Source of the DNA: Apostichopus japonicus
Lineage: Eukaryota; Echinodermata; Holothuroidea; Aspidochirotida; Stichopodidae
Length of the DNA stretch: 64,000 nucleotides
Assembly: GCF_037975245.1 (NCBI RefSeq)
Contig: NC_092571.1
Location: 21,749,917-21,813,916 of the forward strand
Direction of reading: 5' to 3'
The notes below the pieces were generated by a model. It was not told where the DNA came from. It saw only the letters and a list, made by a program, of their open reading frames with translations, and searched no databases. Of the stretch, positions 42,558 to 64,000 are shown in pieces. Position 1 is the first letter of the stretch. The number at the start of each line of letters is the position of its first letter. The position numbers and the translations under genes were made by a program.

Positions 42558-45500
42558 GTAAGTGGATTGTCATATTATCTCAATTATGAAGGTTACAGAG
42601 TTGTGCATGTACTAGATTCGCGACTAGGCCTAGCCTACTTAGATTGCTGTGTAGTAATAGCATGGTGTACGGTACTGTAACTTCGCGTGTTCCCTAAATT
42701 CGCGTTACTGTGTTATACATATATAGTTGCACAAATAGTCAAATTGTAACCACTTTCATTCATAATTTCAATATACAAAGCATGAACAAATGCAGCCAAA
42801 ACAAGGCATCATCAATTTTGTGATCTGAGACACTTTCATGGATTATTCCACAGAGTCAGGGAAATTTTTCCTTGCTTTGAGCAGTTTGACTCCCAACCTT
42901 TACAAGTATAAATTTTCTATTTCCCGCGGAATCTGATCAACTAATTGATGAAATCACATAGCTGAATTGAAAGCACTAAGCCACCGAGCAAAGTAAGCTA
43001 GATGATAGATCGTGATCGCAGTTATCTTTTAAAATAACTTTAATGCTATTACTAAAGCGAATTTACAGTATAGGCCTACCATCATCTAGTATTTCTACCG
43101 GGAATTTACTGTCTTGGATCGAGAATTGGCTTGGTAATAGGAAACAGAGGGTGGTAATTAAAGGCTGTGCTTCTTCTTGGCAGGACGTTACTAGTGGGGT
43201 TCCACAATGGTCTGTAGTGGGTCCCTTGTTGTTTGTTGCTATATAAATGACATCGACGGAGATATTTTGTGTACAGCTAAAAAGTTTGCTGATGACACCA
43301 AATTGTATTCTGAGGTCTCTTCCAAAAACTATTATAAGAAGTTTCAAATGGATTTGGATCAGTTTTTTTCCCGGTCTCAGGGGTGGCAAATGCTTTTTAA
43401 TATTGATAAATGCAATGTAGTGCACATTGGTAGTACAGTAACCAAAAGTTTATATACAATCTTAACGGTGTGGAGTTACAGGAGGTCTCTGTTGAAAGAG
43501 ACCTAGGTATCTACATTGACTCATCTCTACAACCTTCTAAACATTGTCTTGAAGCTGCTAAAAGAGGTATATAATAGGGTTTTAGGTATGATCAAGAGGA
43601 ACTTCAGTTTTCTGAAAGAGGACATCGTAGTTAGGCTTTATAAGCAGTTGGTTAGGCCTCATCTGGAGAATGCTGTGCAGGCTTGGAACCCATATTTTGC
43701 TAAGGATAAGGAAGTACTTGAAAAGGTCCAGGGGAGGGCTACTAGGATGATTAGTTCCTTAAAGAGTGTTCCTTAGTATAGGCGGTTACAACTGTTGAAT
43801 CTCACCACACTAGAGCTTAGGAGGTTACGTGGGGACTTGATCCAGGTTTTCAAGATTGTGTATGGTTTCGACAATTTATCCTTTACCGACTTTTTCATGT
43901 TTGCTAACAGTAGTTGTACCAGAGGTTATTGTCTTAAACTCCATAAGTCACATAGTAGGATTAATATTCAGCATAACTTTTTTTTCTAATAGGGTTGTGA
44001 ATGAGTGGAATGGTTTGCCTGAGAAAGTTTTACTTGCAAGTAGTGTCAATGGGTTTAAGAATACTTTGGACAAGCACTTTAAGCATTGTAATCGGGTCTG
44101 AGTGTTTGTGTCTTCAGTTTTTCTTTTCTCTCTCTATAGGGTCCTTGATGGGGACTTGAGTGTCCCTCCTGATCCTTTTTTTCTACTAAACTAAACTAAA
44201 CTAGTATTAGTAACCAGACCCTGGAAGTGGAAATCATCACAAAGGATCACAAGGACTTAAATCAAAGCCCCCCCCTCCAACACCCCCCCCCCCCTTTCAG
44301 CACAAGTTTTTATCTGGTATAAGAAGCTTTATGATCTTGGTGGAACTTCAGGGAGAATGTCAGACATCTCTTACCAAACCATGATCAGATGGTCACAGCT
44401 AAAAAGATAAAAATGCAGGGTAGTCTGCAATTTACAGTAGGTTAACACTGATAACTTACAGTGTCCAATTACAGTACAAAGTAATCACTTACCTGAATGT
44501 TATGAAGATGACCAAACTTGTCAGAACTTGTTCATTTTTTGTTGTTGTCTGAAATCATTATTTTCATACCATCACAGTCTCTTGTGAATAATTTATATCT
44601 TCCAGGAGTTGTAACACCATTGGGGATTGGTGTCAGCAATGTATGGTCAAAATTACTTCAAGGCAAGAGTGGCATTGAATTGCTGAGTGGAGAAAAATAT
44701 GAAGGAATACCAAGTAAAGTAGGTAAGATGTTTGAGGATGAAAGAACTGAACCATTTATTTCGTTTTCATGTCTTTTGTGGGTAGCCAAAGCAACTTTGG
44801 CAAATCTTTTCACTGGTCACTGAGTTATTAGTATCCTCGATAGTTTGCAAATCGTGTTTAATCAGAATTCATGTCTATAATCAGTATGAAATCATGTTTG
44901 TCAATATTTACATTTCTACTCAATGTAAATTTTTCGACAAAAAACGTTTTGTAATCAGTGATGATAATACCGGAGAGAATACCGTAGAGAATACAATGTG
45001 GTGTGCCACAAGGCTCTATTCTTGGTCCATTGTTTTTCATCCTTTATGTCAATGACATTAATACCAAAGTTTTTGGTAAAGTTAAAGTTGTTATATTTGC
45101 TGACGACACAAATATCTTCTTCGTACCACAATCGAGTACTTTATTTCATATTGAAGTATCAACTGAATAAAGACAAGTTAAGCGACTGGTTTGCTGGCAA
45201 CAAATTATCATTGAATATTGATAAAACAAACTATATAGTTTTTAATACTTCTTACAATTTTACATGGAATGCTGATATAACTATGGGCGGTCAACGACTA
45301 CAACAAGTCAAAAGCACTAGATTTTTAGGCGGTTATATAGATCATAAACTTAAACGGTGTGAAGACATGACAACTGTCTGTAAAAAAGTTGCAAAAAACA
45401 CTGGTGTTTTAGCTAAGCTTAAGCATTATCTGCCACAACACATATTAAAGATTCTCTACCAGACATTAGTCCTGCCACATATTACGTATTGTTGTAACAT

Positions 45501-54500: not shown

Positions 54501-55892
54501 ATAAAATAACATAGTATGAAAATAGTGATTCTGTTAATAAGGCTAGTGACCATAGAACCAAAAAAAAAATAGTGAAGAATGATAAGAATCTCAATTCAAC
54601 AAAAGATATTTACAAAATATAAGGAAAGAAAGAAACAGGACAGAGAATAAGCTGAAAAGTAATAAAAAGGAAATAAGAAATAAGAAAGGGATAGAACGCA
54701 ATCAGCAAACGAACAAATTCACAAGAGATGGCCAGGAAGAAGAGTAGCTCACAAATAATTGCTTAAAATTTTAACCCAATGACCCCAAATGATTGTTGAT
54801 CTCTTCTAAAAGAATGAGGTATCTGAGCAGATTTAACAGAAGGAGAAAGTGGCTGCCACATGGTAATTGTTGAGGTGTAATTTGCCATGCTGATTATTTG
54901 TGACAGGTAACTGTCAAAATATGGTACAAATGGGTATGATCAGTACCAGATTATGCAATGGGAAGATCAGATTAGTGCTTAAGGCCCCCCAAATTCAAGG
55001 GGCTTGAAAGGTGAAGCATCCCCCTGAGGTCACAGACTGCTGTGAACACTGCCAAGAAAGACTTCTAGTTTGGGTTGTGCATTCACACTTTAATGGGGAT
55101 GTGGAAAGAATATGGTGCTGTAGGATCACCAGAGGTTGTTAATGTGGCACTGGGTGATAAACAAGTATTTCATCACTTCTCCTACAGGCGATGAAATTGA
55201 GAATCGGGCAATCAAGTCTGTCTTTGGTTCCCATGCCAACAACCTGGCTGTGTCTTCCACCAAAGGAGCGACGGGTCATATGTTAGGTGCTGCTGGAGCA
55301 TTAGAAGCAATATTCACTGTACTAGCATGTCAACATGTAAGTGATAATAAGCTTAATTATCTTCCGTGTTAAAATATAATTTAAATCTACACTTCACATT
55401 GAGCATCGATTGCTGGTTGGAGTGTTAGCTCAGTGGTTAGCGCCGGTGCCTTTCAATCATAAGATCCCGAGTTCGAGTCACTCAAAGATTAATTTATGTC
55501 GTCCAGTTACAGAGTTGTTGACAATTGACAATTCATAATCATGGACATTAAATATGAATGTAAGAGACTGACTTCGGTCAGCTTGCGGATGGGTTCCTGC
55601 TTGCAGGAGGATCTAAACTACATACATACATACATAATCTTTAGTACCACTGTGAAGTTATTTAAACTATTTCTACTCCTCCCTAAAGTATTTTTTTATT
55701 TTCAATTTTCCTCTCTTCCAGGGTCAGCTGCCTCCAACAATTAATCTAGAAGAGACAGACGATGAATTTGATCTGAATTATGTGCCTAATAAATCTCAGG
55801 TTTGGCTGGGAGATGGTAGACGGATTGGACTCACAAACTCTTTTGGGTTTGGCGGTACCAATGCCTCTTTATGCATTGGAAGTGTCAGATGA
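42413..55892 (+). CDS. OXSM: Mitochondrial 3-oxoacyl-[acyl-carrier-protein] synthase, 12 exons
   Basis: KAS II-type condensing enzyme of mitochondrial type II fatty-acid synthesis. It elongates acyl-ACP with malonyl-ACP and so supplies octanoate for lipoate. Exons: 42413-42557, 44606-44722, 47850-47914, 49139-49246, 49878-49949, 50798-50884, 51388-51539, 52159-52273, 52961-53027, 53605-53742, 55188-55336, 55722-55892. All are bounded by AG/GT and all phases agree. The sum is 1386 nt, 461 codons plus stop, close to the human protein (about 459). An N-terminal basic, Ser-rich presequence of about 40 residues is followed by VTGIGVVTPLG. The active site is Cys208 (STACTTG), His349 ([10 protein letters not shown]), Lys381 and His386 (STKGATGH), with NSFGFGGTN at 444-452. 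The start ATG is the first after an in-frame TGA at 42368. Codon 157 (49911-49913) is TAG where the fold needs a residue: a nonsense allele, recent pseudogene or sequence error. Confidence 0.93.
43045..44206 (+). pseudogene. LINE family A, copy 1 (reverse transcriptase relic in OXSM intron 1)
   Basis: 5'-truncated non-LTR retrotransposon of the jockey/CR1-like group. In order it shows [17 protein letters not shown], then the RT block [12 protein letters not shown] (normally GVPQGSV), then YINDI and the catalytic KFADDTKLY, then the thumb and C-terminal region ([32 protein letters not shown]). Compared with the copy at 57323 it has frame breaks near 43235, 43438, 43566 and 43976 and a TAG at about 43773, so it is dead. 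After the stop come a short hairpin (GGGAC 44151-44155 / GTCCC 44162-44166) and a tail of repeated ACTAA (44184-44203). It lies in the same orientation as OXSM, wholly in intron 1. Confidence 0.9.
44151..44206 (+). repeat. LINE A 3' hairpin and (ACTAA)n tail
   Basis: GGGAC-loop-GTCCC followed by TCCTGATCC, a T run and three to four ACTAA repeats. The same order is seen at 58162-58216, and inverted and decayed at 56483-56520. A simple-repeat tail in place of poly-A is typical of CR1/L2-like LINEs. Confidence 0.8.
44606..44722 (+). CDS. OXSM: OXSM exon 2: N-terminal core
   Basis: Residues 49 (split) to 87. It starts [18 protein letters not shown] and continues [20 protein letters not shown], the conserved start of the KAS fold. 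The acceptor is TATCTTCCAG|GA and the donor GTAG|GTAAGA, phases 1 and 1. Confidence 0.93.
45514..47056. mobile_element. hAT element inserted in LINE B, 1543 bp
   Basis: The terminal inverted repeats are CAGTGTTCGA (45514-45523) and TCGAACACTG (47047-47056), exactly matched. The flanking octamers are CTGGTACT (45506-45513) and CAGGTACT (47057-47064), 7 of 8 identical: a hAT-type 8-bp target duplication. Excising the element and one octamer restores the LINE B frame from IWSGT directly to RYTNLNP. No transposase is readable inside, so it is a non-autonomous or gutted copy. Confidence 0.92.
45697..45815. repeat. ATCGGTATCGGCCGATAT repeat end inside the hAT
   Basis: TAGTGTTACTACGATAATCG followed by several copies of TATCGGTATCGG and its inverse, including the palindrome-like ATCGGCCGAT. 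This motif cluster is typical of subterminal regions of other hAT families in animals, so it may be a second nested end. Its partner is not visible. Confidence 0.45.
47850..47914 (+). CDS. OXSM: OXSM exon 3
   Basis: 65 nt, residues 88 (split) to 109: [21 protein letters not shown] and a final Ala. It aligns with the family VPRG...EGQF segment. The acceptor is CCAACAG|CT and the donor GCT|GTGAGT. It is too short to stand out as an open frame and was found by matching phase and motif. Confidence 0.88.
49139..49246 (+). CDS. OXSM: OXSM exon 4
   Basis: 36 codons, residues 110-145: [20 protein letters not shown] then [16 protein letters not shown]. It corresponds to the helix with the pattern SPTIMAIGAAELAL..SGW in the family. 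The acceptor is CTGTAG|GAG and the donor ACA|GTAAGC, both phase 0. Confidence 0.9.
49878..49949 (+). CDS. OXSM: OXSM exon 5, contains in-frame TAG
   Basis: 24 codons, residues 146-169: [11 protein letters not shown], then TAG at 49911-49913, then [12 protein letters not shown]. Both sides match the family (GxxIG...LEEI...TG), and the acceptor (TTTTGTAG|GGT) and donor (AAG|GTAAGT) are strong. The stop falls where relatives usually have an acidic residue; GAG to TAG is a single-base change. Confidence 0.88.
50798..50884 (+). CDS. OXSM: OXSM exon 6
   Basis: 29 codons, residues 170-198: [20 protein letters not shown] then HIGIRYGFQ. This is the strongly conserved RKVSPFFVP...N.AAG.IS...G region. 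The acceptor is TTTTCCAG|GGG and the donor CAG|GTAAGA. Confidence 0.95.
51388..51539 (+). CDS. OXSM: OXSM exon 7: catalytic cysteine
   Basis: Residues 199-248 plus two bases. It contains [13 protein letters not shown] with nucleophile Cys208, then [10 protein letters not shown] and the AGGAE...GF motif. The acceptor is CTCATAG|GGA. The donor TCAAG|GTATTA is weaker than the others in the gene. Confidence 0.96.
52159..52273 (+). CDS. OXSM: OXSM exon 8
   Basis: Completes Arg249, then residues 250-287: [20 protein letters not shown] then [18 protein letters not shown]. The SRPFDxxRDGFVMxEGAAVL block is a KAS signature. The acceptor is TTTCCCAG|G. The donor GAG|GTTTGG is non-ideal but is required by the next exon's phase. 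Confidence 0.95.
52961..53027 (+). CDS. OXSM: OXSM exon 9
   Basis: Residues 288-309 plus one base: [20 protein letters not shown] then LS. The A..RGA.I.AE..GYG..G motif is conserved. The acceptor is CACTTAG|GAG and the donor TCAG|GTGAGG. Confidence 0.93.
53605..53742 (+). CDS. OXSM: OXSM exon 10: first catalytic histidine
   Basis: Residues 310 (split) to 355: [19 protein letters not shown], then [10 protein letters not shown], then [14 protein letters not shown] with catalytic His349. The acceptor is GACAG|GT and the donor CTAG|GTAAGG. Confidence 0.96.
55188..55336 (+). CDS. OXSM: OXSM exon 11: catalytic Lys and second His
   Basis: Residues 356 (split) to 405: [13 protein letters not shown], then [20 protein letters not shown] with Lys381 and His386, then [13 protein letters not shown]. 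The acceptor is CTACAG|GC and the donor CAT|GTAAGT. Confidence 0.96.
55416..55637 (+). mobile_element. tRNA-derived SINE in OXSM intron 11
   Basis: The head has a Pol III A box TTAGCTCAGTGG (55424-55435 region) with tRNA-like continuation GTTAGCGCCGG, and a B box GAGTTCGAGTC near 55470. A body of about 130 bp follows with two small hairpins (TGACTTCGGTCA; CCTGCTTGCAGG), then a 3' tail of CATA tetranucleotide repeats (55619-55635). This head-body-simple-repeat-tail layout is that of a SINE mobilised by a LINE. No clear target duplication is visible. Confidence 0.85.
55722..55892 (+). CDS. OXSM: OXSM exon 12: C-terminus and stop
   Basis: Residues 406-461 and TGA at 55890-55892: [26 protein letters not shown], then [20 protein letters not shown]. 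It contains the LPPT.N sheet and the GFGGTN loop that closes the active site. The acceptor is CTCTTCCAG|GGT. No canonical AATAAA lies close behind the stop; an ATTAAA is at about 56014. Confidence 0.95.
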
Positions 55893-56482
55893 CAGTGGTC
55901 TATGATTGTTCATGTCTTTGATGGACAAGGGAAAGAACAGACGAAGGCAATTTAAGATGTTAATTCTTGATCTGTCGTGATGAAATATCGATGTTCGATG
56001 AAAAGTAATATCCAATTAAAGGAATGATTACAGCTATGACTATTTAAATTTTATTAATATGAGATTTAAAGAAGTCAAATGGGAAGATGACTGATGATAT
56101 CACCCTTTGATATGTCAAATTTACCACTTTTACGTTTTTGTTATCAAATTTACAAACCAGTTAAAGCAGAATTTTTGGATGTTCTAGTAGTCTCAATTAG
56201 CATCTGCTTATTCATAAATATAATTGTGCATGCATATGTTAAAATTGTTGTTTTGACATGTATAAGGCCTTTAAATTTGAATTGTTCAAAGTGTACTTTG
56301 TGATGTTGTGTAAGTGCAACATTTTACATATAATCCTGTGTCTTAAACAGTGTTTCATATTCGGTCGCTACTGCAGCAATATTAAAGGCTTTACTATGCA
56401 TTGAGCTGCATATCATTGTCAGACATATTACGTATATAGTTACCTTTCCAGTCCTTACTCCTGAATTGAACAGCATATTTGG

Positions 56483-56822
56483 CTAGTTAAGGTTAGTAGA
56501 AAAAGGATCAGGAGGGACACTTAAGTCCCCATCAAGAACCCTATAGGAGAGAAAAAACACAGAAAACACAAACACTTAGACCCGATTACAATGCTTAAAG
56601 TGCTTGTCCAAAAGTTTTCTTTAATCTATTTTTACTTCTTGCAAGTACAACTTTCTCAGGCAAACCGTTCCACTCATTCACAACCCTATTAAAAAAAAAA
56701 GTTATGCTGAATATTAATCCTACTTTGTAACTTTTGGAGTTAACGTCAATGACCTTTGGTACAACTACTATTAGCAAACATGAAAAAGTCAGGGAAGGAT
56801 AAATTGTCAAACCATACAAAAT
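56483..56822 (-). pseudogene. LINE family A, copy 3 (3' fragment, antisense)
   Basis: On the minus strand it encodes the LINE A C-terminus (YGLTIYPSLTF out of frame, [27 protein letters not shown]) and the same 3' UTR with GGGAC/GTCCC hairpin and a decayed CTACTAACC tail toward 56483. It is truncated at its 5' end at about 56822 and is more diverged than copies 1 and 2. Confidence 0.85.
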
Positions 56823-57322
56823 GTAGGAAACTGTGTTAACTGATGGAGGAGAGATGTGTAGGTTTGAGTGAATATACCATATGCCGTCTACTTAGAAATT
56901 ACATTAAAACACCGTGATGACATTCGTATCAACTGGTTACATTGAACTTTTTTTCTAATAAGCTTTATGCTCTATTGAAGTTTTTTTTAGACGAGAAGAA
57001 CACAATGAATGTGATTGAGAGAGAGCAAGAGAATAAAATGTCATTTTGGTTTTTTTGTTGTTGTTCATGTCTATGTTACTGGAATGCTATTTTCCATTAA
57101 TTAATGCCTATTAAGTGTCCAGTGTCCTGGAACTTTTTCACATCCAGGACAATTTGAAGGTGAAATAATCTGAGACAAATTGCGCTAAAACAGAATTGAT
57201 GGTAATTGCAACATATTTACATTCACAAGGGCAGGGCTATGATTTTATATTTAAATCCGTAAAAATATCAAACCTACACCATTACGATAAGAATGATCCA
57301 TCCTTTGACACATTGGTGTGAA

Positions 57323-58216
57323 TTCGACGGAGATAAGGTCTCTTCCAAAAGCTATTATGAGAAGTTTCAAATGGATTTGGATCAGGTTTTTTCCTGGTCT
57401 CAAGGGTGGCAAATGCTTTTTAATATTGATAAATGTAAGGTAATGCACATTGGTAGTAGTAACCAAAAGTTTACATACAATCTTAATGGTGTGGATTTAG
57501 AGGAGGTCTCTGTTGAAAGAGACCTAGGTATCTACATTGACTCATCTCTGCAACCTTCTAAACATTGTCTTGAAGCTGCTAAAAGAGGTAATAGGGTTTT
57601 GGGTATGATCAAGAGGAACTTCAGTTTTCTGAAAGAGGACATCGTAGTTAGGCTTTATAAGCAGTTGGTTAGGCCTCATCTGGAGTATGCTGTGCAGGCT
57701 TGGAACCCTTACTTTGCTAAGGATAAGGAAGTACTTGAAAATGTCCAGAAGAGGGCTACTAGGATGATTAGTTCCTTAAAGAGGGTTCCTTATTATAGGC
57801 GGTTACAACTGTTGAATCTCACCACACTGGAGCTTAGGAGGTTACCTGGGGACTTGATCCAGGTTTTCAAGAATGTGTATGGTTTCGACAATTTATCCTT
57901 TACTGACTTTTTCATGTTGGCAAACAGTAGTTGTACAAGAGGTCATTGTCTTAAACTTCAAAAGTCGCATAGTAGGATTAATATTCGGCATAACTTTTTT
58001 TCTAATAGGGTTGTGAATGAGTGGAATAGCTTGCCTGAGAAAGTTTTACTTGCAAGTAGTGTCAATGGGTTTAAGAATGCTTTGGACAAGCACTTTAAGC
58101 ATTGTAATCGGGTCTGAGTGTTTGTGTCTTCAGTTTTTTCCCTCTTTATAGGGTCCTTGATGGGGACTTAAGTGTCCCTCCTGATCCTTTTTTCTACTAA
58201 ACTAAACTAAACTAAA
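57323..58216 (+). pseudogene. LINE family A, copy 2 (long open frame lacking FADD)
   Basis: An open frame from 57293 to the TGA at 58115-58117 covers the RT fingers/thumb and C-terminal region, very close in sequence to copy 1. Relative to copy 1 it lacks about 48 bp after GACGGAGAT (57334). This removes exactly 16 codons, including the catalytic FADD, and keeps the frame. It then runs [75 protein letters not shown]. The 3' UTR, hairpin and ACTAA tail (58193-58216) are intact. It cannot be an active polymerase despite the open frame. Confidence 0.9.
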
Positions 58217-59216
58217 TTTGAGGTTTTACACTCACACACTGCTGATCCAGTTCCAAGCTATTCACTGTTAAAATATGCTAAACCTCCGATATGTTCCTTT
58301 AAAGGCTAACTTGATGATGTTATCAGCTCTTCTAGAACAGGCTTTAACGTTAATGTTAAGTTTTGTTAACCCATTGCTTTACATAAATTCTCACTCAACC
58401 AAAGCATGTTCCTTTAACTTGATATTAAAACAACAACACCCTTGCACCCATTGAAAGAAAATTAAACACCATCTATCCAAAAGTTGACAAATTTGTACTA
58501 CCACTGTAAACATGTCATTTGAGACAGGTAAATATCTTTTTGTGATTTTGTGCTGGATCTGAGGAACTCAGCTAAATGGATAAAGTATTAGACTAAATAG
58601 TCTTGTCACTCTAAACCGATGAACCTCGGCAAATTAATGGGTCGTTCCCGTACAAATTAAAAGTGGCATAAAAAATCTAGCCTGGTCTGATAGCACTGTT
58701 TTCCAACCATTCACAACAAATTAACTGAGGTTTGTTAAACTTTGTTTCTAAAATCATCTTTTTTATGAATTTTTCCTTCAAGTCTTTCCATTGTAATATA
58801 GCTTGTAAACCTATTGCAATCAAAAACTTTTACATTTTTTTTTACATTTTATAATAATATTCTGTAACTACTGTAGTTGATACAACAATACTAGACATTT
58901 CACTAGTAGATGGGTTATAAATAATAATAATAAAAAAATTGACATTTCTGACATTACATAAGTTAGGGAAATCATTAAATGTTCTTAGATCTCTGTCTGT
59001 GGCTCTGACTCCCTCCCACCAAGAAAGTGTTAATCCCCCACCCCCTCCTATCACCAAAAGCAATCCGTTTTCGCCCTTAAAATTACTGGCTATCGTTGAC
59101 TCATTCGAGTCTTCAAATGTAACATGCATGATCTACACTTTATGCAGAGTTCTTACGTCTACATGGCTTGTGTATTCCTATGTAGTAATTTTCTTTCATA
59201 CTCTTTTTATGGACAG
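58217..59216. other. No gene seen
   Basis: About 1 kb of AT-rich DNA between the LINE A tail and the candidate exon at 59217. I saw no exon that could precede the latter in phase. Confidence 0.4.
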
Positions 59217-59410
59217 AACCACCTATGGTGTCCACCATGGAACAGCTCACCGAGAGACCTCCAGAAGACTTAAATTTGGAAGAGACTTGGGAAGATGACG
59301 AAACATCAGACAGAGACAATAAATTGGAATCCCAAGCCCCTGTAGCCGATTCAGAGCCCAACTCTAGTCTCATTATGGACATGAAAGCCTCCATCTCACC
59401 TCCGAGTTAA
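59217..59410 (+). CDS. Candidate terminal exon of an unidentified acidic protein
   Basis: A pyrimidine-rich stretch and GGACAG precede an open frame that reads PPMVSTMEQLTERPPEDLNL, EETWEDDETSDRDNKLES, then APVADSEPNSSL and ISPPS before TAA. The composition (many Glu, Asp, Ser and Pro, no repeat character) looks like a real hydrophilic C-terminal tail. An AATAAA lies downstream at about 59716. I do not recognise the protein and no upstream exon is visible, so it could also be an isolated 61-codon frame beginning at the ATG at 59225. Confidence 0.35.
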
Positions 59411-59542
59411 GTACAGTCTAACTCTTACCAGATCAGGAAAGGCTTACCAGACGATAACCTCCTGAAGGCAGAAGAAGACAGAAAAGTTTGTTCCAATTCT
59501 GGTAGCGACGTGCCGAACGCTTCATCGATCCAAAATGACAAG

Positions 59543-59543
<1 letters not shown>

Positions 59544-59583
<40 letters not shown>
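59544..59583. repeat. (TA)n microsatellite
   Basis: About 20 uninterrupted TA dinucleotides. Confidence 0.97.
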
Positions 59584-59586
<3 letters not shown>

Positions 59587-60017
59587 AATTGTACAATTGT
59601 GCTATGAAACCAACTGTGGCTGGTCTGGAACTCGACCGAGTCATCGGGAACACGATGCGTTTCGGTATTAGACCAGGATCTATATGATCCGTAACTCATA
59701 CAATGAATCTAAAAATAAATTCCGCATGTGATTGGAGAATTGAGCACATCTCCTGTGAATATCATGTAGTACGTGGGGGGGGGGGGCAGGCGGATGCACC
59801 TATCACTTCTTGAGATTGTTCCAATCTGCGTGAAAATGCCCCACCACCCACCCCCCACAACCCCTACGCCCCACCCCTCTTATCACTTCCCGATGGGTTA
59901 CAAAACTTTAACAATAACCTTCGCCCGTAGTACCAAAACCTTGACAAAATCCGGCAACACACCACTTCATCGATAGATAACGAGTCTAGTGATCGGGCTG
60001 TGTATTAGTGATGCTAG
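59584..60017. other. No gene seen; G-run and C-rich stretch
   Basis: Contains a run of G at 59776-59786 and a C-rich CCACCACCCACCCCCC stretch near 59840. No exon or transposon end is recognisable. Confidence 0.4.
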
Positions 60018-61265
60018 AGGTCGTGCATATGGCAAGCCCTTTAACATTTACCTCACAATTATACTTAAGTCGAATACATTTCACTTAAGTGGAATACATT
60101 CTACTTAAGTGAAATGTTATTTCACTGAAGTAAAATGTATTCCACTTAAGTGGAATTCAATATCCCTTCAGTAGAATTCCATTTCTCTTAAGTGGAAATG
60201 GACATTTCTATTTCACTTAAGTGGATATGCCTCCCACTTAAGTGGAATTGTATTTCACTTTAGTGGAAATGCATTCCACTTAAGTGGAATTGTATTTCAC
60301 TTAAGTGGAATACATTTCCACTTAAGTGGAATACATTTCCACTTAAGCTAAATAGCCCATCTATTTCACTTAAGTGGAACACAATTCCACTTAAGTGAAA
60401 TGCATTTCCACTTAAGTGAAATACAATTCCATTTAAGTGGAATGCATTTCCACTTAAGTGGAATTGTATTCCACTTAAGTGGAATACAATTTCACTTAAG
60501 TGGAATAATATCTTTTGCTCGTCAATTTCACTTAAGTGGAATTCTATTCTGCCAAAGTAAAATACAATTCCACTTAAGTGGAAGTGTTGATATGTGGCTT
60601 ATATATAAATACAATTTAGGGTAATGTTCGGTAATGTTATTTTGGTAATGGTATTCATCTGGTACCAGGTCAGGTATGTACGTACTCACCTTGCACGGAT
60701 GTTAAGTGCTAGCTGGATCCCGATGGACAGCCGATATTCATTGTGCACATATCGACACCACGTATCACGGCAAGTTGTTTATAATGGCGCGCAAAGGCAT
60801 GGGCAAAGTTTGGCGTTGAATGTACTAGCCAATCACATTCCACTTAAGTGGAATAGACTAGCCAATCACATTCCACTTAAGTGAAATAGACTATCCAATC
60901 ACATTTCCATTGTATTCCACTTAAGTGAAATAGAAAGGAAATTCCACTTAAGTGGAATTGTATCCACTTAAGTAGAATACAATTCCACTTAAGTGAAATG
61001 CATTTCCACTTAAGTGAAATACAATCCCCTTAAGTGAAATAGATTAAGCTTAAGTAAGATGCAGTGACAAGTTGATGAATTCAGCTTAAGTAAAATACAA
61101 TTAAGCTTAAGTGGAATGGTATTCCACTTAAGTGAAATAGAATTCCACGTAAGTTAAATAGTATTCTGCTTAAGTGATATTGAATTCCACTTAAGTGAAA
61201 TGTATTCGACTTAAGTCGAATTGCGAGGTAAATGTTAAAACGGCTTGCCATACGTGCACTGACCT
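60018..61265. mobile_element. Foldback element packed with CTTAAG palindromes
   Basis: The two ends are inverted repeats of about 60 bp with small gaps: left AGGTCGTGCATATGGCAAGCC, TTTAACATTTACCTC, CTTAAGTCGAATACATTT; right the same in inverse order. Between them are 34 CTTAAG cores by my count, most inside longer palindromes of the form TTCCACTTAAGTGGAA or TTTCACTTAAGTGAAA, in two blocks (60060-60590 and 60835-61220) around a 240-bp unique centre. Cores are often about 20-22 bp apart. There is no protein-coding capacity beyond artefact frames. No target duplication is evident. It is probably a non-autonomous foldback or MITE-type element. Confidence 0.8.
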
Positions 61266-61618
61266 AAATGGAGTGTAACCACTCCCGATTTTGCAATTTC
61301 CCAAGATCAGGCCCGAAAAATCCCAAGACATTCCAAGAACACTGTGCTGTATGGATTTCTAGCAATATCCAGCGATAGGGATGAATATCCCAAGATCTTA
61401 CCTAAACTGAAGGCAGATAGAGAATCGAAACCTTCAGTGTACTGAACTTGAAACTGCGTCTTTCGAAATGAAAAGAATGTCGGGAATTGCACAATAAACA
61501 AATCAAAGTTATTTATTTCAGTCTCATTTCAATTATTCGAATTTGTTAAGCAAACAGCAGATATCACATCATATAAGTGAGCATGAAAATGGCGTTCCAG
61601 GATGAACAGCCTCTAAAC

Positions 61619-61797
61619 CATGGGCGCAGATCCTGGTGCGGACAGCGGGACGCGTCCCCATCAACTTTTTCAGTAGTGGGGACATGATATACCGTGTCCC
61701 CACCAATTTGTCTTGACCAATAGCTGCATTTCAAGTTCCCCTGTATTGAACCTTGGCGCAGTTAGATCCAGCCCAGCCCCCGGTTCCTACGCCCTTG
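61619..61797. mobile_element. Small MITE (CATGGGCGC ... GCCCTTG)
   Basis: CATGGGCGCAGATCC at 61619 and the inverted relative GGTTCCTACGCCCTTG ending at 61797 match the terminal style of the 34-40 kb repeats. The GGGGACATGATATACC and GTGTCCCC segments fold back. The flanks TCTAAACC and CTAACCAC are similar apart from an indel, consistent with a decayed target duplication. Confidence 0.5.
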
Positions 61798-62700
61798 CTA
61801 ACCACTGCGTCACAGCAACTGTTGAGAAATAATGCTATTTTTTTCCTTCAAAATGGAACGGAGGGAGATGTTCAAAATGCTGTACTTGTAAACAGGATAA
61901 CTCAACACGTTCACCTTTATTGAACTTCATATATCAAATGGTCTTAAAATTGGCATTATTTTCAGTGATTAATACTACATGACTCTAGGTTTGGCAGTGA
62001 CTTGTGAAAATGTTTCATAGTGAAAATAAAACAATGTCATGTAACTCATTAATTATTAAAGGGGTGGCAGAGCTGCTTTTCTTGCTTAAATTGATCAAAG
62101 AATATGTCCATGTGCTCATACATAGAGCATCTGTATGTCTTTATTTCACATAGGAAGACTGTTCTCTCTGGGTATTGAAACATTTTGGAATATAAATTCT
62201 ACATTTTTGAGTCCTTAAAAGATCTTAATTCTTTTGATTGCCTTGTTGCTAAAGTAATGGTCAAGGCAACGTTTCCTGAATCTGCATAGCTCATGTCGCG
62301 GAGCGGTTGAAAACTATTAATATACAACAACCAGTTAAAACAACAGTATCAGGCAGTATTTTAGCACCCTCCGTTCCATTTTTGAAGAAAAAATTACGAT
62401 TAAAACATTGAACACTTCTATCGCTTAGCATACAATTTCCGAGGAAACAACACCGTGAAACTGGAGAACATTTATGAATAAGAATGGTTTGATTTGACTG
62501 CTTTGAAATAACGTATGACTGGCAAGATGAGTCGAGCGCTCTCTATCGGCCTCGTTTTTGGTCAGTTTGCAACTTCAGAGGAACAATAGAAACCCGAAAA
62601 AACTTTTAAAACGAACAAAGGATTCACAAACCTTTGTTCTGCCTAAAAGATAAGCAGAATGAAAATAAAATAAAACTGTTAGCAAACTGCTTATCCACTA
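61798..62700. other. No gene seen
   Basis: About 0.9 kb of AT-rich sequence with no recognisable exon, RNA gene or repeat end. Confidence 0.4.
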
Positions 62701-62703
62701 GAG

Positions 62704-62761
62704 AGCCTGTGCAATAGAATGTGTAAAAGTTTCGATCCTAGCAGGATCTTCTTCAGAGGCT
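62704..62761 (-). other. Hammerhead-ribozyme-like core (incomplete)
   Basis: On the minus strand: CTGAAGA, a 5-bp helix GATCC-TGCTA-GGATC, then GAAAC. This is the CUGANGA / stem II / GAAA arrangement of hammerhead ribozymes. Flanking AGCCT and AGGCT can form stem I. The base before the expected cleavage nucleotide is A where U is needed, so it is at best a decayed ribozyme. Confidence 0.3.
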
Positions 62762-62790
62762 AAGAAAATAAGATAAGCAGAAAGTTTGGT

Positions 62791-64000
62791 TTATTGTAGA
62801 TTTGTGTGCGCGGAATTAGCCCGATTGATACGGGAAAGGTGATTAATTTGCTCTAGGTGGGGTATGGTGCGGTTATCTATAATTCTTTCGAAAATCTTAC
62901 CTAAGGCTGGGAGGAGACTAACTGGTCGATAGTTTTGAATTTTGGTGCGGTCTTTACTTAGTTTCGGTATTAAAATCTTTTTGGCGGATTTCCATGGGGT
63001 TGGGAAATAACCCAGTGTAAGGAGTTCGTTAAATAGTGGGAAAATATGAGAGTTAATGAATATCGGAGGGGAGTTTTTAGGCATTTGGTCATTTATGTTG
63101 TCAGGACCAGTGGAGGATGCATGTTTTAGTGGCACTATACCAATTGTTTATATCTATTTTATTGAGCAGAGGGATGTTTTTGTTGAGACATCCTAATGGG
63201 TTGGTGTTAAAGCTGGTTGCATTACTGATAATTGTACGGTCTATTTCGTGTTTACAGCTGATATCGTATGGGGGCCATCGTAGATATTGAATATACTTTT
63301 AAAGTACGATTCAATTAGCTTTATTTGGTCTTGAGTTTTTGTGATGAGGTTACCTACGTTATCTCTAAGGCCTTGGTCTGTTTTACCTGTGTTTGGTGTT
63401 GTAATGGGGTTAATAATTTTTTTTTTTTAAAGTTTCCAAAAGTGTTTCGGGTTTTTATCATTAATGATGAAATCGCAGTTGTTTTGGACGCGGTTGTTCA
63501 TCCGCCAATATTTGTCTGTTTATTGCTATTTAAGTTGGTTAATTTGGGTTTTTAGAGTTGGGTCTCGGGAGATGATATAAGTTCTACGTAGGCGACGTCT
63601 GAGTTTCATAAGTGTAAGAATATTCTTATTTAGTTTTCGTTTTCTGTTTTGTTTTTAAGGGACAGTGTCTTTTGAAAGTATAGAAAATATGATGGGCAAC
63701 GCTGTCACAGTAATTGTCGATGTAATTTAGCTCGTTGTTTTGGTTGTTGTATTTTGGGAGTCTGTTTTATTGTAGTTATACGTCAATTCGTTTTTTGGTA
63801 CGCAGTTGAGGTTTATGTCTAGCTCAAAAACGAGTGGAAAATGGTCACTGATTTAGTCATCTTCTAGGATTTGTATCGAATGTGTTTTAGTTGCGAGGTG
63901 ATTTGAGGTTATATGGGTAGTCAAGTAGTTCTGTAATATTGTTTATTGGGTTCATCCTAGGTTTGGTATTTTGGTTAATTATCGTTAAGTTGTATTTATC
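62791..64000 (-). pseudogene. LINE family C relic: endonuclease end and RT start (antisense, runs off the window)
   Basis: Read from 64000 leftwards it first gives, with stops and frameshifts, ILEDD then SDHFPLVFELDI (the SDH motif that ends the APE-type endonuclease). A Lys/Arg-rich linker follows (RKRKLNKNILTLMKLRRRLR; WRMNNRVQNN; KNPKHFWKL), then IKLIESYFKSIF. From 63135 it gives SSTGPDNINDQMPK, FPTPWKSAKKILIPKLSKDR and NYRPVSLLPALGKIFERII, the classic start of non-LTR reverse transcriptase. It ends near 62791, before the catalytic FADD region. It is a different family from LINEs A and B and is dead. Confidence 0.88.

Follow-up and report, generated by a model that had tools for sequence, protein, structure and literature searches.

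What kind of element is the dense cluster of CTTAAG motifs in the 64,000-nucleotide stretch of Apostichopus japonicus DNA analysed here (the window), and what could so many copies of one short motif serve for? The first-pass annotation had described a foldback element at 60018..61265 built on 34 CTTAAG cores. These 34 cores were found within 60064-61215, far beyond chance: the whole window holds 44 CTTAAG against 16.8 expected, a count reached in 0 of 100 shuffles, and first-order Markov sequences of the 1.24 kb contained 0.37 on average and 3 at most (n=1000). The window element is an internally deleted copy of a family dispersed through the A. japonicus genome. It is probably a cut-and-paste transposon of IS3EU/GingerRoot type that is non-autonomous through internal deletion and has ends in foldback style, in which the CTTAAG arrays would be transposase sites.

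The transposon occupies 60028-61252 (1225 bp), a narrower extent than the one first given. It starts with TATGGCAAGCC and ends with GGCTTGCCATA, and it is flanked on the left by CGTGCA at 60022-60027, which is repeated exactly on the right at 61253-61258. Among 18 boundary shifts tested, this was the sole flanking direct repeat longer than 4 bp, the second-best shift giving a 4-bp repeat, and random pairs at a fixed boundary matched exactly over at least 6 bp in 0.05% of cases. With the boundary set by the duplication, the termini read TATGG..CCATA. The left terminal sequence, TATGGCAAGCC-CTTTAACATTTACCTC, lies on the plus strand at 60028-60054 and has 27 bp, the usual family form being 28 bp, and the right one, TATGGCAAGCCGTTTTAACATTTACCTC on the minus strand, lies at 61225-61252; both ends align as TATGGCAAGCC followed by one or two variable bases and TTTAACATTTACCTC. 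The inverted ends had been put at about 60 bp; they are real and stay in register for about 82 bp, two units included, before they drift (over the first 82 bp, 73 positions agree, 7 are mismatched and 4 fall in gaps). An extension of the inverted repeat past 60028 (AGGTC-GTGCA) was rejected, since 3% of random pairs matched its score and the duplications of other copies abut TATGG directly.

Inside the termini, a mismatch-tolerant scan recognized 40 units, 24 on the left and 16 on the right (the raw yield was 42, and two weak 10/16 matches in the centre were left out). The left array runs along the plus strand at 60059-60583 with an intact CTTAAG in 19 of its 24 units, and the right array lies on the minus strand at 60838-61220 with an intact CTTAAG in 15 of its 16 units and with units that point the other way from those on the left. 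Considering the 39 spacings between units, 24 were 21 bp, 7 were 20 bp and 8 were of other lengths. Perfect palindromes were shorter than first described: they reach at least 10 bp round 24 of the 34 cores and at least 14 bp round only 9, although most cores had been assigned to palindromes of 14-16 bp. A full match to TTYCACTTAAGTGRAA was found in 21/40 units when C/T and G/A were both accepted at the variable position. The half-site pooled from 80 half-sites is AAGTGRAAT, where AAG and the later AA are conserved at 95-99%, T at 89% and G at 78%, and R is G in 62%. Oriented units were 9:5 in the left array versus 0:10 in the right (Fisher p 0.002, only indicative because the units share ancestry), and these opposite senses support true inverted arms, while the overall identity of the arrays was nearly equal in inverted and direct alignment (15.3 vs 15.1 of 20). 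The end alignment and the opposed unit polarity together bear out a foldback element with inverted ends.

The arrays enclose a centre without units of about 254 bp (60584-60837, plus strand), so that the proposed unit-free centre exists and its length of 240 bp needed correction. It carries a TATA-like TATATATAAATA stretch at 60600, and in locus L030 the TATATATAAATA stretch lies upstream of a remnant of the transposase first exon. The window copy is without this remnant, a part having been lost between 60630 and 60637; at this junction, about 365-375 bp extra are present in all nine of L018-L026. Where the right array borders the centre, a direct repeat of 33 bp of ACTAGCCAATCACATTCCACTTAAGTGAAATAG type is present in 2.5 copies (60824-60905, plus strand), each of which couples a CCAAT motif with a whole or partial CTTAAG unit. 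We take this CCAAT motif to be the NF-Y motif and presume that it could be promoter-like.

Other copies were sought in the genome from which the window comes (G000, 671.6 Mb, 35 contigs), as the first-pass annotation had suggested for the ends and their target duplications. At up to 3 mismatches the end pattern matched 298 times forward and 297 times in reverse, against 0 + 0 for the reversed-pattern control, and a search with the whole element gave 235 matches, which include inverted self-matches of the arrays and are not a copy number. Homologues outside this genome gave 0 matches in viral_contigs, genome_contigs and plasmids. Among further end pairs, 20/20 had exact 6-bp duplications, and since two of these pairs have common flanks they represent 19 different sites. 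The duplications were exactly 6 bp, none of them continuing as an exact match at the lengths of up to 12 bp examined, whereas mismatched end pairs used as a control agreed with at most one mismatch in 26/380. This sample consists of the inward pairs among about 100 listed exact ends, which favours young copies, and one of its sites is that of L033. The targets show an NGNNCN-like preference (G at position 2 in 18/20, C at position 5 in 17/20), to which the CGTGCA of the window conforms. A first set of 14 pairings comprised 7 with exact 6-bp duplications, 3 with a single mismatch and 4 with neither (L029, L032, L034 and one L028 pairing); L032 is without a 6-bp match, yet GTGAC stands on both sides, and the L028 pairings were picked by matching flanks among several possible ones. 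Because the copies of both sets were found by the TAYGG pattern, their terminal letters are not independent evidence, but the exact abutment of the duplications is.

These results also bear on whether the locus is a locally expanded low-complexity palindrome and no mobile element, for which the first-pass annotation had named the absence of other copies and of conserved core spacing as the sign. Eighteen of the 20 loci first fetched share the flank of the window and are segmental duplicates, as local expansion would have it. The remaining loci L027 and L028, however, have no flank in common with the window (at E 1e-5, neither 57001-60027 nor 61253-64000 was matched), the matches of L028 stop at 60028 and 61252, and with exact duplications at 19 different sites we give local expansion practically no credence. 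Both other copies and conserved spacing were found.

Several loci are composite. L028 contains nested and abutting family copies, and at its positions 142-1032 a short copy stands between CATCCG and CGGATG, which are inverted and not direct repeats. The family copy at L029:656-3625 (minus strand) is broken by a LINE whose endonuclease-reverse transcriptase frame has 989 aa; L029 (5.9 kb) was rejected as an autonomous copy, its frame having RVT_1 and endonuclease matches. The window from about 55800 to 64000 is itself part of a segmental duplication, with longest flank matches 95-99.6% identical in 18/20 loci. Its duplicates in G000 lie on C19 (31.2-32.4 Mb), C20 (0.27-1.24 Mb), C21 (0.2-0.8 Mb), C4 (29.3-29.5 Mb), C11 (0.13 Mb) and C14 (0.15 Mb), several of them within about 1.2 Mb of contig ends, as if subtelomeric. 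Two LINE-like fragments, 43313-44203 and 57336-58214, are 94% identical, and the latter overlaps a 284-aa open frame without a Pfam match. A 165-bp satellite fills positions 1-29631 of the window (179.6 copies, 99% matches) and contains GGTTCGAACCC, which we take to be tRNA B-box-like; ARAGORN found no tRNA in 29000-64000 and none in the first 1000 window bases, and Rfam at gathering scores gave 0 matches in 29000-64000.

Fifteen elements were compared, among them L018 and L021, which are related to the window copy by segmental duplication. Each had 31-44 CTTAAG, and counted from either end the first core lay at element position 38 in 13 of the 15. Core spacing, whose comparison between copies had been proposed at the outset, is conserved. 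The elements form two subfamilies: A, with a common centre sequence, comprises the window copy, L018, L021, L027, L028b, L029, L030, L036 and L037, and B, with a different centre, comprises L028a and L031-L035. We compared majority lines of their ends after two of the 24 ends had been dropped (B_R_L031, where the array is replaced, and A_R_L027, which was misaligned). The terminus was identical between A and B at 28/28 positions in each comparison (consensus of ends). In the four end comparisons, the cores agreed at 45/48, 42/42, 42/42 and 42/47 positions (89-100%) and the linkers at 73/110, 66/119, 76/117 and 68/113 (55-66%), with Fisher p values of 1.3e-4, 2e-9, 6e-7 and 2.9e-4; cores were defined from CTTAAG in these lines, which favours conservation, and the union over both lines limits this bias. 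Left and right ends agreed within A at 42/42 core and 83/117 linker positions and within B at 44/48 and 87/113 (p 0.029). Since the cores were kept while the linkers diverged between subfamilies, the cores seem to be under constraint.

The outermost palindrome exhibited matched changes on both arms, reading TTCGACTTAAGTCGAA in A, TTCTACTTAAGTAGAA in B and TTCTTCTTAAGAAGAA in one L033 end. Its half-arm of 8-9 was perfect in 16 of 24 ends and imperfect in 8, which include 5/6 A left ends. With up to 5 mismatches allowed, 6/6 subfamily B elements contain an extra internal copy of the terminus, placed at one array's inner edge (L031 513, L032 554, L033 582, L034 1380, L035 554, L028 2629), and GAAGGA adjoins it in 5/6 of these places. 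It may record an ancient nested insertion or be a further end that the element can use.

To the deleted window copy the genome adds coding relatives. A first-exon-like frame with MATANHSHLTLLECDQ was matched in 15/37 loci, in some with stops, and is retained in L030 (3.9 kb); its peptide has 123 matches in the genome. One distant match on C16, 40% over residues 5-82, leads to locus L082, where the first frame, an HTH-like frame and an integrase core frame lie on one strand, their splicing being an assumption. The integrase core matched PF24764 at 2.7e-76 and has its presumed D, D and E separated by 39 and 34 residues, and the HTH_7 match (1.7e-4) was sub-threshold, at 22.1 bits vs the Pfam cut-off of 23.8. 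At E 0.1, none of the 3 frames of L082 that were scanned matched THAP. Upstream of these frames we found an exact 28-bp family terminus and 23 CTTAAG; the array and its spacing are subfamily B-like, and the first exon shares only 40% identity with its subfamily A counterpart. A single family end (up to 3 mismatches) was present in the 13.5 kb of L082, and because the adjoining 7.5 kb held no second end, this copy may be truncated. A complete autonomous copy was not seen, L082's 13.5 kb included. Downstream of transposase frames in L085, a tandem repeat of about 161 bp lies at about 22-2420.

The likeliest role of the arrays, predicted from the conservation of the cores and in comparison with Galileo, is that of transposase-binding sites. 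Considering what the subfamilies conserve, the earlier idea that any one core could be bound by a dimeric protein seems plausible. The arrays could instead act as structure, in the form of extruded hairpins or cruciforms or of an RNA hairpin feeding small-RNA silencing, and not be read by protein. The left end and array (60028-60593) fold as single-stranded DNA with an energy of -167.7 kcal/mol, where shuffled sequences average -46.6 (z -25.9), the whole element as RNA folds at -574.2 kcal/mol, a figure without shuffles, and the matched two-sided changes of the outermost palindrome would also suit such a role. However, folding energy is no independent evidence, because any dyad-symmetric tandem array folds well; the perfect palindrome is shorter than 10 bp at 10/34 window cores and shorter than 14 bp at 25/34, and the cores, not the whole palindromes, are conserved between subfamilies. 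We therefore regard structure alone as unlikely and as a weaker rival than transposase-binding arrays.

It is likewise unlikely, in our estimation, that the cores are alike only through unequal exchange or gene conversion within and between the arms, with function limited to the 28-bp terminus. The arms share 47 bp exactly and in direct orientation (at 60381 and 60979), and this and the tandem structure itself speak for such exchange, yet conversion should homogenise the linkers too, and these differ far more between subfamilies than the cores do; moreover, the positions of a unit differ in how often they are substituted (chi-square p 7.7e-7, with units that are not independent). A host factor attracted by the conserved cores, so that the element uses, or serves as, a cis-regulatory module, would find an argument in TTAAGTGG, which presumably resembles NK2-class homeodomain sites and occurs in the element 18 times on the plus and 19 times on the minus strand, with 0 in 29633-59900. 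The GTGG arm varies between subfamilies, though, while CTTAAG and the terminus are kept, and TTAAGTGG was absent among the literature matches listed, which makes a host factor quite improbable.

Returning to transposase-binding arrays, we suggest the following mechanism. A transposase from intact relatives would bind the conserved 28-bp terminus in order to cleave there, and a DNA-binding part of its own, for which there is a weak HTH match, would contact the CTTAAG dyads. As the units recur about every two helical turns, the cores would be placed on one face of the DNA, and such an array would make binding of the ends tighter and more specific and favour their coming together. The arrays may have grown by tandem duplication of units together with exchange between arms. 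In a more specific and tentative form, which we consider possible but less than probable, an IS3EU-type transposase reads the phased array, about 12-24 dyads per end nucleate a multimeric, end-synapsing assembly, and dyad symmetry is maintained, as the compensatory changes of the outermost palindromes suggest. If so, a foldback strategy evolved in a superfamily for which none was found described in the literature listed. A protein filament on the CTTAAG array, raised in the first-pass annotation, may form; the free-standing binding-site sink raised alongside it found no support, the arrays being the inner part of transposon ends.

Comparison with known systems places the element by superfamily and by architecture. 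Foldback arms of short tandem repeats are known from the TU elements of sea urchins. Complete IS3EU families always have TA..TA ends and usually 6-bp duplications, according to the available part of PMC10045372, and the fungal TET-bearing IS3EU elements have TAYGG..CCRTA and TIRs over 30 bp in the available part of PMC12730594. The window element agrees in its TATGG..CCATA termini, in the 6-bp CGTGCA and in inverted ends in register for about 82 bp. IS3EU/GingerRoot elements encode an integrase-type DDE transposase with an N-terminal region without HHCC; the deleted window copy is without a transposase, and its L082 relative has an integrase-core frame and a sub-threshold HTH-like frame. Termini, duplication and the presumed transposase type point to an element of IS3EU/GingerRoot type, not to a proven member. 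The ends built as arrays of CTTAAG units set the window family apart from IS3EU/GingerRoot as described in the accessible portions of these two papers, and among the literature matches listed no foldback ends in IS3EU were described; PMC8268682, the one listed paper to use both words, has "foldback" in its reference list. The exact text of CTTAAGTGGAA occurred in the literature only in papers on unrelated topics by title, and the family may already be catalogued in Repbase.

In architecture, the long tandem-repeat inverted ends round a unique middle are those of the foldback type, a structural class. Like Galileo of Drosophila (P superfamily), the element has long, internally repetitive inverted ends; those of Galileo contain sites for the THAP domain of its transposase, of which one was footprinted and two others were recognised from sequence, and the authors found extra binding sites, detected no transposition and called the function of the repeats uncertain (PMC3688188, as far as its available text goes). 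Galileo/P membership was rejected, the Galileo transposase being P-type with THAP in contrast with the integrase core in the L082 relative, whose frames gave no THAP match. Tetris of Drosophila virilis shares the foldback plan, with tandem repeats in its ends and a non-coding middle, but its repeats are about 220 bp, its duplications 8-10 bp, and its authors suggested Mutator (PMC4079207, from the excerpt available); such membership was rejected for our family as well, its duplications being exactly 6 bp in 20/20. Since Foldback, Galileo and Tetris, on the available portions of their descriptions, have internally repetitive long inverted ends, the earlier statement that no element of this design is described was too strong. 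The plan resembles theirs, here in another superfamily, and its presence outside the P and Mutator assignments would be consistent with an independent origin. Why Foldback-like elements carry long repetitive ends is an unsettled question, and with many copies bearing exact duplications, two subfamilies and a transposase-bearing relative, this family makes it testable in an integrase-type superfamily.
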